This document shows positions 7,584 to 25,826 of a stretch of DNA of 27,579 nt, piece after piece. The notes beneath the pieces were generated by a model. The model did not search any database. It was not told the DNA's origin and was given only the letters and a program-made list of their open reading frames with translations. The translations under genes were made by a program, and so were the position numbers. Origin of the DNA: a virus; the IMG/VR virus record IMGVR_UViG_3300040946_000173, positions 1 to 27,579 of that record, one strand, 5' to 3'. The first letter of the stretch is position 1, and each line of letters begins with the position of its first letter.

Positions 7584-7598
7584 GTCCAAATTTTGGAC
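7584..7598. promoter_or_regulatory. Palindromic element copy 2 (GTCCAAATTTTGGAC)
   Basis: The same 15-bp element in reverse orientation relative to copy 1. It overlaps the first base of the MuF stop codon and starts the 150-bp gap before the Ig-like gene. Confidence 0.7.
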
Positions 7599-13725: not shown

Positions 13726-13929
13726 ATGAGACAGAGACCAAACACCAAGGGTGGATTGAGAGTCGTTTTGCCGCTCGAACTCATTCAGGCGCTCAAGCGG
13801 GAAGCCGAGGATGGCCCGACGCTGATTTCAATCGTCGAGTCTGCGTTGAGGGAGCACGTCATCAGAAGGGAATTGGCTCAGAGCAAGAAGAAAGGGCGCT
13901 CTGTCCAAAATTTGGACAGGCAGAGATGA
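13726..13929 (+). CDS. Ribbon-helix-helix (Arc/CopG-like) regulator
   Basis: A 67-aa basic protein. GGLRVVLPLELIQALKREAE, then GPTLISIVESALREHVIRR, fits strand, helix, turn, helix of the RHH fold. It leads the long plus-strand cassette and starts only 8 nt after a -10 box, without a ribosome-binding site. This suggests a leaderless message and likely autoregulation through the TTGCA repeats in its promoter. Its last codons (SVQNLDR) are written in the palindromic element copy 3, so the element is both coding and possibly regulatory. A second RHH regulator heads the 5.8 kb cassette. Confidence 0.75.
   Translation: MRQRPNTKGGLRVVLPLELIQALKREAEDGPTLISIVESALREHVIRRELAQSKKKGRSVQNLDRQR
13903..13917. 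promoter_or_regulatory. Palindromic element copy 3 (GTCCAAAATTTGGAC)
   Basis: Lies within the last codons of the regulator gene and 16 nt before the GTG of the next gene. The flanks extend the symmetry to CT...AG (13901-13919), giving the longest palindrome of the five copies. Confidence 0.7.
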
Positions 13930-21428: not shown

Positions 21429-21443
21429 GTCCAAAATTTGGAA
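21429..21443. promoter_or_regulatory. Palindromic element copy 4 (one mismatch)
   Basis: GTCCAAAATTTGGAA; the last base deviates from the consensus. On the minus strand it is followed at once by AGAGGAG, the ribosome-binding site of the secreted-protein gene, as at copy 1. Confidence 0.65.
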
Positions 21444-21470: not shown

Positions 21471-22010
21471 CTAAAGCTCGCAGCGGTCGGTCAGTTGGCG
21501 GATCAAGCGCTCGACCGACTCGATGACGTCGTTGTTGCGGTGGAGTTGGAAAGCGAGCACAACGAAGTTCGCGTCGGCTTTCTCGACTTCGGCGCCCTTC
21601 TCGGCTTTGTCATCAGAAGGATTAGAGCGAAGCGTCGATTTGATCCGATCCGCCAGCGCGGTCGCTGCCTTCTTGAGCAATTCGCAGGCGCGAGCTTGCC
21701 TGTCCAGTTGCTCGGTCACCTGCGACCGGCGCCCGGCCGTCGGCTTGCTGTCGATCCCACTGGTTTCATAGGCTTCCCGTTTCATCTCTCCTCCTCCGGT
21801 GATTGTGTTTTGCCTTGCATCTCTTTCGCCGCCTCTCTTGGACGAGATCGCGTCCCCGGGCGGATACGGCGGGGAGCCGATAGAGGCGACCGACAGACCG
21901 GTGACCGTCCCGCCTCGGCTGACCTTTGCGACGGTCACGCTGCTGGACCCGGAGCGTTTCGGGGGCCCGGCGACGTCCCCGGCGCCGGTCTTCCGCTTCT
22001 TCTCCATCAC
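21471..22010 (-). CDS. Hypothetical helical protein, 179 aa (or 104 aa from an internal start)
   Basis: The ATG at 22010 overlaps the stop of the RHH gene (ATGA), giving a 179-aa product with a Gly/Ser/Lys-rich, disordered N-terminal 75 residues. A second in-frame ATG at 21785 has a far better ribosome-binding site (GGAGGAGGAGAG) and yields only the folded part: KREAYETSGIDSKPTAG, then helices QLDRQARACELLKKAATALA and HRNNDVIESVERLIRQLTD. Either or both may be made. The helical part looks like a short coiled coil. Function not recognised. Confidence 0.6.
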   Translation of the reverse strand: MMEKKRKTGAGDVAGPPKRSGSSSVTVAKVSRGGTVTGLSVASIGSPPYPPGDAISSKRGGERDARQNTITGGGEMKREAYETSGIDSKPTAGRRSQVTEQLDRQARACELLKKAATALADRIKSTLRSNPSDDKAEKGAEVEKADANFVVLAFQLHRNNDVIESVERLIRQLTDRCEL

Positions 22011-22171
22011 TTCGCGCCTCTCTTCTCGACTGCCGGCTTCGAGGCCGACTGGTCGTTAAGCACCCCGCGAATCCACTCCGAAAGTCCCAGCCCCTTTTCT
22101 GCCGCCTGGGCCTTCCACTTCTCCACCTCTCGGCTCTCGGCTCGGAGCTTGATCGTCGCGTCCTTCGGCAT
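22007..22171 (-). CDS. Ribbon-helix-helix-like small protein, 54 aa
   Basis: ATG at 22171 (earlier non-ATG starts lack support). The sequence DATIKLRAESREVEKWKAQA then GLGLSEWIRGVLND fits strand, helix, turn, helix of an RHH fold, as in MobC-like and CopG-like proteins. No Shine-Dalgarno sequence is present; TATCGT lies 6 nt before the ATG with TTGCGT 18 bp further up, a weak leaderless-type promoter. It is divergent to the 22.3 kb gene and may control the shared intergenic region. Confidence 0.65.
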   Translation of the reverse strand: MPKDATIKLRAESREVEKWKAQAAEKGLGLSEWIRGVLNDQSASKPAVEKRGAK

Positions 22172-22218
22172 GGGGAAACGATACTGCGAGTGTGGGTACA
22201 AACGCAAGGGAAATCTGC

Positions 22219-22224
22219 TATACT
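22219..22224 (+). promoter_or_regulatory. -10 box (TATACT) for the 22.3 kb gene
   Basis: TATACT at 22219-22224 with no clear -35 hexamer. The predicted transcript would begin near 22231 and carry a leader of about 67 nt with the hairpin at 22233-22262, then AGGAGGA at 22284. Confidence 0.4.
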
Positions 22225-22232
22225 TCAGCGAG

Positions 22233-22262
22233 GCCGAGACGCCGCGTGGAACGGCGCCCGGC
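22233..22262 (+). other. Structured 5' leader hairpin
   Basis: GCCG (22233-22236) pairs with CGGC (22259-22262), and CGCCG (22240-22244) with CGGCG (22252-22256), around a 7-nt loop and a small internal bulge. It lies entirely between the predicted transcription start and the ribosome-binding site of the 290-aa gene. It may affect translation or be chance structure in a G+C-rich leader. Confidence 0.35.
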
Positions 22263-22297
22263 TTCTTGGCAAGTCCGCGTCACAGGAGGACGCCTTC

Positions 22298-23170
22298 ATG
22301 CCCGAAAACAATCATACCACCGAAACCCGGCTCGCCCGGAGAGATCAGGTCCTTGACCGCCTGGAGCGATGCCGGGAACTTTTGAACGAATGCAAGACCC
22401 TCAAAGACGCCGTAAAGCTCGCGGCGCTCAGCGAGGCCGCGAAAGCCTACGCGAAACGGGTCGGCGTCAGCAAAGAAGTCATCGCCGAGGCCTCCGCACT
22501 CAGGGTCGAGGCAGAACGTAAGCTCGGCCAGATTTTGGAAAAGACACCAAAAGCTAAGGCTGGCCGCCCTGAAAAAATAAATCGGTTACCCAGGTTACCA
22601 ATTTCCGAGACTGATGAAATTGACAAGCCGGAAACGCTCAAGGCCGCCGGTAAGGCTGGCCGCCCTGAAAAAATAAATCGGTTACCCAGGTTACCAATTT
22701 CCGAGACTGATGAAATTGACAAGCCGGAAACGCTCAAGGCCGCCGGCATTCCCAAACACGTCAGCGTCAGAGCACAGAAGCTTGCTGCGATTCCCGAAGA
22801 AGAATTCAAGGCCAAGATTGACGAGACGAAGGAAGCAGGCAAAAACATCACATTCTCGACTTTCATTGAGCGCGAAGCCGCCCATCCCGTACTCGAGTGG
22901 ATTCGCCGCGGAATAACTCTCCGCAAACAATATGATTCGATAGAGTGGCAAGATGAGGAATTGATCGAAGTGAAGTCGTCTTCCCCTCAACTCAGAACGT
23001 GGCTCCTCAGCATGAGCATCGCGGCCGTCCCGGAGTCTCAATCCCAGCTTCGCGTCAGACCGCCGGAAGGCAGCAAGTGGAGCCAGAAGGGATGGAGTTA
23101 TTTCTTGCAGGCTTACAAGCGGGAACCAAACGAGGCCGAGTGGGAACCGTACCAGAAGGGGCGTCTTTAG
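22298..23170 (+). CDS. Phage protein of unknown function with internal 32-aa duplication, 290 aa
   Basis: The ATG at 22298 has AGGAGGA at a 7-nt spacing. Residues 10-85 are helical (DAVKLAALSEAAKAYAKRVG, then ALRVEAERKLGQILEKTPKA). This order, with GRPEK and ETLKAAGIPKHVSVRAQKLA after it, resembles a family of hypothetical phage proteins often near ParB-like or methyltransferase genes. Residues about 87-118 are repeated exactly in 119-150 because of a 96-bp tandem DNA duplication. The C-terminal 70 residues (GSKWSQKGWSYFLQAYKREP) form a separate basic domain. It stands alone on the plus strand between minus-strand genes; a DNA-related role is inferred from neighbours only. Confidence 0.8.
   Translation: MPENNHTTETRLARRDQVLDRLERCRELLNECKTLKDAVKLAALSEAAKAYAKRVGVSKEVIAEASALRVEAERKLGQILEKTPKAKAGRPEKINRLPRLPISETDEIDKPETLKAAGKAGRPEKINRLPRLPISETDEIDKPETLKAAGIPKHVSVRAQKLAAIPEEEFKAKIDETKEAGKNITFSTFIEREAAHPVLEWIRRGITLRKQYDSIEWQDEELIEVKSSSPQLRTWLLSMSIAAVPESQSQLRVRPPEGSKWSQKGWSYFLQAYKREPNEAEWEPYQKGRL
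22555..22746 (+). repeat. Exact 96-bp tandem duplication
   Basis: 22555-22650 and 22651-22746 are identical over all 96 bases and add 32 residues in frame. The lack of any difference, even at third codon positions, shows a very recent duplication or an assembly or sequencing artefact. Confidence 0.95.
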
Positions 23171-23900: not shown

Positions 23901-24827
23901 CTATGAAATGGTAGGAGATTGCGATTCGATCCCGATGTCCTCAACCTGAATTTCTGGAAACTCCTTTGGAATCTGCCGGGGGTCTCCATTGAAGAACACA
24001 AGGACGTTCTGGTGCGTCTTCCCCAGCTTGCGGTACTTCCCGAAGGCAGTCCCGATGCGGATAGGCAGGCTTCCGACCGCAGTTACTAGAATAGCCTCGT
24101 TGTACAGCTTCATGTCCGCAGACTCAAAGGCCGCAATGGTGTCCGAAACGAAGTTCCGATAGAACCCTTGCTTATCCCGGTAATCACCCACCACGAAGCA
24201 CGCGAAGCGATTGGGCTTGAGCATCCCGCACGACACGCGAATTACCTGCCTGTACGCGTCCAGAAACTTTTCGTGGGGCATTGTCGAGAGATCACGTGGA
24301 TCGGAGCTGTAGACTTCTAAATCGCCGTAGGGCGGGCAGGAAAAGACCAGATCGTAACTCCCCGGCGCGAGAGCCGCTGCTTTCAGGGCGTCGCCCTCAA
24401 TCCATTGCACGCGCCCGAAGTCCCTCTTTACTGCCCAGCCATTTGAACCTACGGCGAAGATGTCTTTGGCCTGTTTGCGGTTTGCGGCAAGCTGGCCCTT
24501 TGAGAGTTCGATGCCAACGTAGCATAGGCCCAGGACTCCCGCCACTATGCCCCGCACGCTTCCCCCAGCAAAGGGGTCGAGCACATGACCCTTGGGTGGG
24601 CAGAACCAGCGGTAAATCAGCTCGCAGAGCGTCGGATCAAAGATACTCGTCCCGCTCGCCTCTTGGTTCACATCCGAGCCGTCGCGGTTGTACTTCGTGC
24701 TGCTTTCCGTCATCGGGCCGCCACGCCACGCCACGCCCCCTCCACCTCCAGGGACCACTTTATTCGCTCGCATGTGCAGGTCCTTCCGCGCAAATTTCCC
24801 GTCCGGGCCGATTTTACTATCCGGCAT
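23901..24827 (-). CDS. DNA methyltransferase (N6-adenine or N4-cytosine type)
   Basis: A 308-aa protein with FDPTLCELIYRWFC (63-76), motif I VLDPFAGGSVRGIVAG (82-97, binds S-adenosylmethionine), an acidic GIELS strand (105-109) and catalytic motif IV SCPPYGDLE (163-171, equivalent to DPPY). The order motif I then IV suggests the gamma-type arrangement. It would modify phage DNA to evade host restriction, or regulate packaging or expression. The C-terminal half (FACFVVGDYRDKQGF, ILVTAVGSLPIRIG) is the substrate-binding core. The ATG has a weak GGTGG upstream. A tetranucleotide tract lies 23 bases upstream of it and may switch its N-terminus. Confidence 0.85.
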   Translation of the reverse strand: MPDSKIGPDGKFARKDLHMRANKVVPGGGGGVAWRGGPMTESSTKYNRDGSDVNQEASGTSIFDPTLCELIYRWFCPPKGHVLDPFAGGSVRGIVAGVLGLCYVGIELSKGQLAANRKQAKDIFAVGSNGWAVKRDFGRVQWIEGDALKAAALAPGSYDLVFSCPPYGDLEVYSSDPRDLSTMPHEKFLDAYRQVIRVSCGMLKPNRFACFVVGDYRDKQGFYRNFVSDTIAAFESADMKLYNEAILVTAVGSLPIRIGTAFGKYRKLGKTHQNVLVFFNGDPRQIPKEFPEIQVEDIGIESQSPTIS

Positions 24828-24930
24828 CGGCGAGCCACCAGGTGCTACATTCGTTCGTTCGTTCGTTCAGCCATGCCGGTCCTTCTCCCCGCATCAGGTC
24901 TTGCCCGAAGGCTCTCGCATTCTTACCCAT
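24817..24930 (-). CDS. Short ORF upstream of the methyltransferase, 37 aa
   Basis: From the ATG at 24930 the frame gives MGKNARAFGQDLMRGEGPAW then LNERTNECSTWWLADAG and stops within the first codons of the methyltransferase. It crosses the TTCG tetranucleotide tract. Removal of one repeat unit (4 bases) would join it in frame with the methyltransferase as LNERTNVAPGGSPMPDSK, so it may be the detached N-terminus of that protein. Confidence 0.45.
   Translation of the reverse strand: MGKNARAFGQDLMRGEGPAWLNERTNECSTWWLADAG
24850..24868. repeat. TTCG tetranucleotide tract (4.75 units)
   Basis: Four full TTCG units and a partial fifth (GAAC units on the minus strand). Distance between the ATG at 24930 and the methyltransferase ATG is 103 bases, one base out of frame; losing one unit makes it 99. 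Confidence 0.9.
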
Positions 24931-25019
24931 CTATCGGCCTGCCTCTTCCGTCGCCCCGCTGTCGTTTGCTGTAGTCTGCCGCTGGCCTTGGCGACCCGCC
25001 CGGCGACGCTGAAACTCTC

Positions 25020-25748
25020 TTAGCCTGCCTTGGCTCTTGAAGGCCGACGCCTGTTCTGTTCTGTTCTTGCACGCTTCGTCGCCTGATCCGCCGACGGCTT
25101 CAACCGCTGAACCGTCGCGCTAGTTTCAAGGGCCATCTTCGGTGCACCCCCGCGCCCTAGTTCACCCTTTATCCCCAGCGCAATCCACGCCCGCTTGCGG
25201 TCCTGCCAGTAGCCTTGCCGGGCGTCGAGCACAGAGAACGGAGGAACAATAAAGCGCTCGGCTAGTGTCCTACGCGCCTCTTCTGGCGTGACGCCTTCGC
25301 CGCTTCCCTGCCCGAGAGCATCCGCAAACAGCTTCGTCAATTCCTCAGGGAAGAAAAATTTATCCAAATCTGCAAGGCCGTCATCGGAGAGCGCCTTCAA
25401 GACGGCGGGGTCAAATTCGCTCAAATCGGAAGTCCTGTTATCGGCCAAGGCCAACTCTGCCTTTTGCTGGTCTGTAAGGCCCCGGCGCACCACCGCTATG
25501 ATCTCGTGGCCACTCGCTTCAACCGGAACCACTTTCTCGATACCGACATTTGCGGCCGCTTCGATAACGCCGTGCCCAGCGATGATCTGCCCCTCACCGT
25601 CTATGAGGATTGACCGACCCGCGCCGTAGCTTTCAAGTGACCGCTCGATCATGCCGACGTTGCGCTCACCGTGCGTGCGGGCATTCCGCGGATCGGGCCG
25701 AAGGTCTTTGAGGCTGGAAATCTTGTGGCCGTTAGCTTTGGATTTCAT
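25020..25748 (-). CDS. ParB-like nuclease-domain protein
   Basis: A 242-aa product from the ATG at 25748 (a TTG at 25817 would add 23 residues but has no ribosome-binding site). Residues 8-110 match the ParB N-terminal (ParB/Srx) fold: ISSLKDLRPDPRNARTHGER, then GRSILIDGEGQIIAGHGVIE, then ADNRTSD. Such domains bind or cut nucleotides/DNA and are often found beside, or fused to, phage DNA methyltransferases. The end of the domain carries FIVPPFSVLDARQGYWQDRK, commonly seen in such fusions. The gene ends about 190 bases before the methyltransferase ATG. The promoter shows leaderless geometry. Its biological role is unproven. Confidence 0.8.
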   Translation of the reverse strand: MKSKANGHKISSLKDLRPDPRNARTHGERNVGMIERSLESYGAGRSILIDGEGQIIAGHGVIEAAANVGIEKVVPVEASGHEIIAVVRRGLTDQQKAELALADNRTSDLSEFDPAVLKALSDDGLADLDKFFFPEELTKLFADALGQGSGEGVTPEEARRTLAERFIVPPFSVLDARQGYWQDRKRAWIALGIKGELGRGGAPKMALETSATVQRLKPSADQATKRARTEQNRRRPSRAKAG

Positions 25749-25811: not shown

Positions 25812-25826
25812 ATCCAAAATTTGGAC
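25812..25826. promoter_or_regulatory. Palindromic element copy 5 (one mismatch)
   Basis: ATCCAAAATTTGGAC; the first base deviates from the consensus. It sits in the divergent intergenic region between the ParB-like gene and the 25.9 kb cassette, between two promoters. Confidence 0.65.

Follow-up and report, generated by a model that had tools for sequence, protein, structure and literature searches.

We propose, with a probability of about 0.58, that a TTCG tract preceding a viral DNA methyltransferase (MTase) gene is a repeat-bearing, frame-tolerant hinge that would set whether the enzyme is fused to or split from its N-terminal peptide, rather than an ON/OFF switch. The gene is located in IMG/VR record IMGVR_UViG_3300040946_000173, positions 1 to 27,579, which is the whole stretch of DNA analysed and is referred to here as the window. 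The segment that links the ParB-like gene to the MTase is a frame-shifting hotspot, the MTase N-terminus is conserved and frame changes are present among the relatives. In the proposed mechanism, the peptide MGKNARxFGQDLMRGE, translated from position 24930, would enter the tract in one frame, and slippage of the tract would set the frame of exit. One exit frame would fuse the peptide to the MTase; the present frame of the window would lead to a stop just past the ATG at 24827 and the third frame to a stop 20 nt upstream of it, and in both cases the ribosome would restart and produce the MTase alone. The tract would then switch the fused or split state and the N-terminus, with MTase produced in every state. 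We infer, rather than observe, that the ribosome reinitiates, that the states differ in function and that the 4.75-unit tract slips actively.

The tract reads TTCGTTCGTTCGTTCGTTC and, as a reading of the sequence alone had noted, is placed between a short minus-strand ORF, MGKNARAFGQDLMRGEGPAWLNERTNECSTWWLADAG followed by a stop (24930-24817), and the MTase ORF (24827-23901). The former is in register 0 and the latter in register 1, and because 4 = 1 mod 3 the loss of one 4-bp unit joins them in frame; the frame-1 reading across the tract, NERTNVAPGGSPMPDSK, is free of stops, which bears out the junction suggested in the sequence-only reading. Arrays with a period of 4 or 5 and at least 3 copies start at only 24719, 24850 and 25051 in the window, all inside about 350 bp (Table 1). 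ParB, the ParB tail, the N-terminal peptide and the MTase occupy three frames in the window, with tandem repeats where the frames change. A translated non-triplet repeat is present between the start codon, as judged conserved by homologues, and the catalytic domain.

Table 1. Features of the ParB-MTase region in the window.
Feature	Positions	Strand	Basis or remark
ParB-like ORF, ATG 25748 (longer reading: TTG 25817)	25020-25748	-	PHROG; early end ...RRPSRAKAG and stop
Pentanucleotide tract CTGTT x3.4 (AGAAC on coding strand)	25051-25067	-	In the stretch where ParB frame and conserved tail separate
Conserved ParB tail LQEPRQAKRVSASPGGSPRPAADYSKRQRGDGRGRPIDG and stop	24923-25042	-	Out of ParB frame in window, in frame in L018; stop overlaps 24930 ATG
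Short ORF, conserved MTase N-terminus MGKNARAFGQDLMRGEGPAWLNERTNE..., now out of frame with MTase	24817-24930	-	Homologues; stop 24817-24819 just past MTase ATG, ORFs overlap
FGQDLMRGE motif	24883-24909	-	Alignment; no variation among 38 fused homologues
Tetranucleotide tract, TTCG x4.75 on + strand (GAAC/CGAA on coding strand)	24850-24868	-	Sequence; identical in L002/L289
DNA methyltransferase ORF (N6_N4_Mtase; PHROG 12517/498), ATG at 24827	23901-24827	-	Pfam and PHROG matches
Third repeat, CGCCA x3.8, within MTase N-terminal extension	24719-24737	-	Two G/T substitutions relative to near-twin L002
GTSIFDP, start of homology across the whole MTase family	24633-24653	-	Alignment and structure prediction

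The MTase is open over 308 codons, contains the catalytic motif CPPY (as SCPPYGDLE) and matches PF01555 (1.2e-08), PHROG 12517 (2e-88) and PHROG 498 (2e-75). By homology, position 24930 is the genuine conserved start of the MTase gene, as in Microcystis phage Mae-JY30, in which the gene begins MAKGKARTFGQDLMRGEHVVGERT... The FGQDLMRGE motif was located close to the MTase in 143 non-identical loci and is fused to it in most relatives. An AlphaFold2 prediction for one fused homologue placed the beginning of the confidently modelled MTase domain at about residue 47 and left the N-terminus, FGQDLMRGE included, disordered, suggesting that the fold would be complete without the peptide. No Type III model was found among the Pfam, NCBIfam or PHROG matches of the window MTase, and a Foldseek search against the PDB gave generic SAM-methyltransferase matches only. 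The adjoining gene is ParB-like and not a helicase or restriction gene, so the arrangement differs from that of a Type III mod gene with a res partner. An inserted stretch interrupts the MTase of Erythrobacter phage ZS04 (L004 1071-3509) and that of Pseudanabaena phage Pam4 (L005 1041-3530); the Pam4 protein has the annotation of a pyridoxal-phosphate dependent enzyme.

The ParB-like ORF directly upstream of the MTase matches PHROG 498 (6e-31) and PHROG 15396 (1e-30), with no Pfam or NCBIfam match at 0.001. ParB and MTase form a single gene in most of the phage relatives translated. Mae-JY30 contains two overlapping genes, the ParB gene having the C-terminus ...APGGSPMVSGYTKDGK...EEASHG and a stop, inside which the MTase gene begins, and this layout is exactly matched in the window by the overlap between the ParB tail and the start at 24930. 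The sister lineage L018, with an MTase that is 90% identical, has the ParB tail in frame with ParB.

Relatives were gathered from IMG/VR, GTDB genomes and phage records; the search of the genome collection retrieved 0 relatives with a single-sequence query and 68 with an alignment. The linker was defined as the segment from the ParB C-terminus to GTSIFDP, and simple repeats with a period of 1, 2, 4, 5 or 7 were counted in 199 clusters. There were 67 repeats in 84 kb of linkers (0.80 per kb), as compared to 0 in 129 kb of MTase bodies; ParB (105 kb) contained 4 and the flanks (992 kb) contained 12. Repeat densities elsewhere were 0.01 per kb in ORFs and 0.06 per kb in flanks outside called ORFs; the latter contained 10 repeats in 162 kb, all of them homopolymers and none with a period of at least 2, and the linker repeats are 13 times denser than in these stretches of the same contigs. 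First-order Markov shuffles of 197 linkers gave an expectation of 1.2 tracts with a period of at least 2, as compared to 23 observed, and of 7.6 homopolymers, as compared to 44 observed. The ParB-MTase linker is a hotspot of simple repeats in this family.

The position of the tract is nearly constant, often starting 35-51 nt past the F of FGQDL, while the unit varies by lineage: G8-13, GA, AGGC/GCAG (15-35 bp), ACCG (25-33 bp) and, in the window, GAAC. One relative (L057) has a 60-bp AGGC tract just upstream of the FGQDL motif. A tree of 103 MTases requires at least 26 changes of the repeat label, 7 of which are forced by well-supported branches, and about 30 of the frame label. With the other parts of these loci as reference, the frame-shifting periods are the most enriched, about 20-fold or more for periods 2, 4 and 5 as compared to only 2.6-fold for period 3; when an approximate random expectation is the reference, enrichment is similar for all of them, so that the bias mainly says that the linker is without the frame constraint of ordinary genes. 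Nor was the lack of stops in the units accepted as a selected trait, since most random units are stop-free; only the strand bias is informative, with 21 of the 23 longer-unit tracts lacking T on the coding strand, in a linker that is itself poor in T (16.5%). A search of all viral contigs located most tracts of the same units elsewhere (GAAC 82/83, AGGC 118/125), indicating that the units are not specific to the ParB/MTase gene. The approximately 118 other AGGC-type tracts in IMG/VR contigs (loci L308-L405) are outside the ParB/MTase family.

The frame relationship differed with the repeat. Counting distinct states, FGQDLMRGE was in the MTase frame in 61/75 without a repeat, 15/29 with a homopolymer of at least 8 and 2/11 with longer units. 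Two pairs of relatives differ by little else than the tract: over 3196 bp, L179 and L169 are separated by 2 substitutions and a single indel directly following FGQDLMRGEHIV (G10 vs G9), and over 3533 bp, L489 and L493 are separated by 4 substitutions and a single indel in that position (G9 vs G7). Both indels are in the G tract after FGQDLMRGE and alter the frame, although homopolymer differences between assemblies could partly be sequencing errors. Copy number also differs between sister lineages that share a unit (ACCG 33 vs 25 bp; GCAG 35 vs 23 bp). A difference in frame by itself was rejected as proof of phase variation, since the repeat-free loci L194, L249 and L277 are stably split with an ATGA overlap.

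The only near-twin of the window, IMGVR_UViG_3300043776_000188 (L002/L289), contains the same number of TTCG units; across 11,365 bp the two show 99.93% identity, differing by 8 substitutions without any gap. Two of these 8 substitutions in 11 kb fall in the CGCCA repeat, which reads GGCGTGGCGT on the coding strand of the window vs GGCGGGGCGG in the near-twin. The tetranucleotide tracts of the L018 group are likewise identical across five near-identical contigs. The comparison with related phages that the sequence-only reading had called for thus gave a divided result, with G tracts that vary in two pairs of relatives and tetranucleotide tracts that do not; the shortness of the window tract and its constancy in the single near-twin count against active slippage here, as does the constancy in the L018 group.

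With regard to the fate of off-frame translation, the present frame of the window ends at a TAG (24817-24819) 8 nt past the A of the 24827 ATG, which is an arrangement that would favour reinitiation. Only this off-frame has an overlapping stop and start, the stop of the third frame being upstream. In another relative (L250; GTGGGGGGGGGAATGAGTAAA), the MTase-frame ATG is overlapped by a TGA at +1 and followed by a TAA at +5. Overlaps in both off-frames were present in 19/39 repeat-bearing loci vs 2/55 repeat-free in-frame loci (Fisher 2e-7), an association between repeat and junction layout that was not significant in phylogenetically independent pairs, of which too few were supported. As off-frame stops are near start codons and the confidently predicted MTase domain does not include the N-terminal peptide, the enzyme is probably produced whatever the frame, as a fusion in one case and by a restart in the other two. 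All three frames downstream of the tract seem compatible with making it.

One alternative is classical phase variation of the kind known from bacterial mod genes, in which the MTase would be active only with the in-frame repeat number and the window would have been caught in the OFF state. The sequence-only reading had suggested a phase switch of the MTase N-terminus, and the part of it that holds is that a repeat able to shift the frame lies within the region coding for the N-terminus, after the start codon and before the catalytic domain, and the altered frame that follows from repeat-length changes at the same place in relatives; the nearly random frames of repeat-bearing relatives and the G-tract polymorphisms also speak for ON/OFF control. 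The part that we do not retain is the ON/OFF state itself, since the fold begins near GTSIFDP, the N-terminal 46 residues are predicted to be disordered and would not be needed by it, the present-frame stop overlaps the region of the 24827 ATG, MTase-frame starts in the family overlap or adjoin off-frame stops and a stable split with an ATGA overlap is present in several relatives that lack repeats. We consider ON/OFF control unlikely. It is also doubtful that slippage is neutral, with repeats piling up to no regulatory effect in a linker where any frame would do, given an MTase with a start of its own. The unchanged repeat numbers in the near-identical contigs of the window group and of the L018 group, the predicted disorder of the linker and the many changes of frame label on the tree are consistent with neutrality, but the density relative to non-ORF flanks of the same contigs and the T-free coding strand of the tracts are not, and the invariance of FGQDLMRGE in the aligned homologues points to a translated peptide under selection.

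Decay of the ParB/MTase pair into a pseudogene through two frameshifts would explain why the window has lost the frame for both the ParB tail and the N-terminus of the MTase. Decay is nevertheless very unlikely given the long open frame of the MTase and its substitutions relative to L018, which number 22/14/125 at the three codon positions; the tail (4/1/9) and the MGK..RGE stretch (2/1/5) also lean to third positions, implying that both are or were translated, and an independent contig has the same state. That the repeats mainly serve as, or lie near, a ribosome-binding site for a separately started MTase, the frame being irrelevant, is suggested by the resemblance of G and GA runs to the Shine-Dalgarno sequence and by G runs 1-2 nt ahead of AATGAGTAA-type starts in some relatives, such as L250. 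GAAC and ACCG tracts have no such resemblance and most repeat-free relatives are plain fusions, which makes this highly improbable. The tract is short and the contig metagenomic, and the sequence-only reading had allowed for a sequence slip; the same tract in the near-identical second contig argues against an assembly artefact, and neither a stable RNA structure (z = 0.67) nor a slippery heptamer was seen that would indicate programmed ribosomal frameshifting, leaving a negligible probability for either. Frame-tolerant control of the fused or split state, our preferred reading, may be extended to a phage contingency locus, in which hypermutable hinge repeats with changing units would switch the MTase between a free form and a form fused to the conserved peptide or the ParB module, stop/start overlaps would keep expression in every frame and virions would differ in modification state; we put this forward only tentatively.

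Bacterial pathogens are well known for DNA methyltransferases whose phase variation is driven by repeats. Haemophilus, Neisseria and Moraxella have phase-variable Type III methyltransferases (mod/ModM, phasevarions) with a non-triplet repeat near the 5' end of the gene, the copy number of which sets the frame. A phase-variable methyltransferase, ModM3, is described in PMC6902483. The window resembles these systems in having a non-triplet simple repeat, often a tetranucleotide in mod, close to the 5' end of its DNA methyltransferase gene. It differs in that the gene belongs to a phage, has a ParB-like partner and lacks any Type III hallmark that we could find, and also in that the repeat type differs between close relatives and the MTase start often overlaps off-frame stops, making a fused/split outcome likely. 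The combination of a ParB-like domain with an N6_N4-type MTase is shared with the PHROG 498 fusions of Mae-JY30, Erythrobacter phages ZS04 and R6L and Listeria phage B054, as are the motifs GTSIFDP, DPFAGGSVRG and CPPY; the linker motif FGQDLM(R/K)GE is common to the window, Mae-JY30 and the Erythrobacter phages. In contrast to these fusions, the parts in the window are in three frames with tandem repeats at the frame changes. The 1-2 bp changes in the G tracts of L179/L169 and L489/L493 shift the frame as in the poly-G phase-variable genes that make up Campylobacter phasomes (e.g. PMC6321876), but here the contigs are viral and the changes fall at a conserved position just past FGQDLMRGE, beside an overlapping restart codon.

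In the open-access literature we found no description of a repeat hinge between ParB and MTase, and no report that repeat-driven phase variation recurs among the methyltransferase genes of phages. Should the hinge vary in living phages, one phage clone could contain several modification states, a possible route around restriction, and off-frame stops that overlap the restart codon would combine slippery DNA with uninterrupted expression. The family offers many natural variants, including the two near-identical pairs in which the frame differs by one indel, which makes the idea directly testable.

Other features of the window include a near-palindrome, TCCAAATTTTGGAC, in five copies (2401-2415, 7584-7598, 13903-13917, 21429-21443 and 25812-25826), each also read with a 1-base offset on the other strand, giving 10 matches on both strands vs 0.09 expected. 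It may be an operator or a site for a repressor. At the last of these copies, near 25817, the window and L289 cease to be homologous, and beyond this point L289 continues with another ParB-like gene and an ATPase/GNAT-like ORF and the window with unrelated ORFs on the + strand. A perfect 96-bp tandem duplication at 22555-22746, also present in L289, adds 32 in-frame codons (KAGRPEKINRLPRLPISETDEIDKPETLKAAG) to the ORF at 21926-23170.
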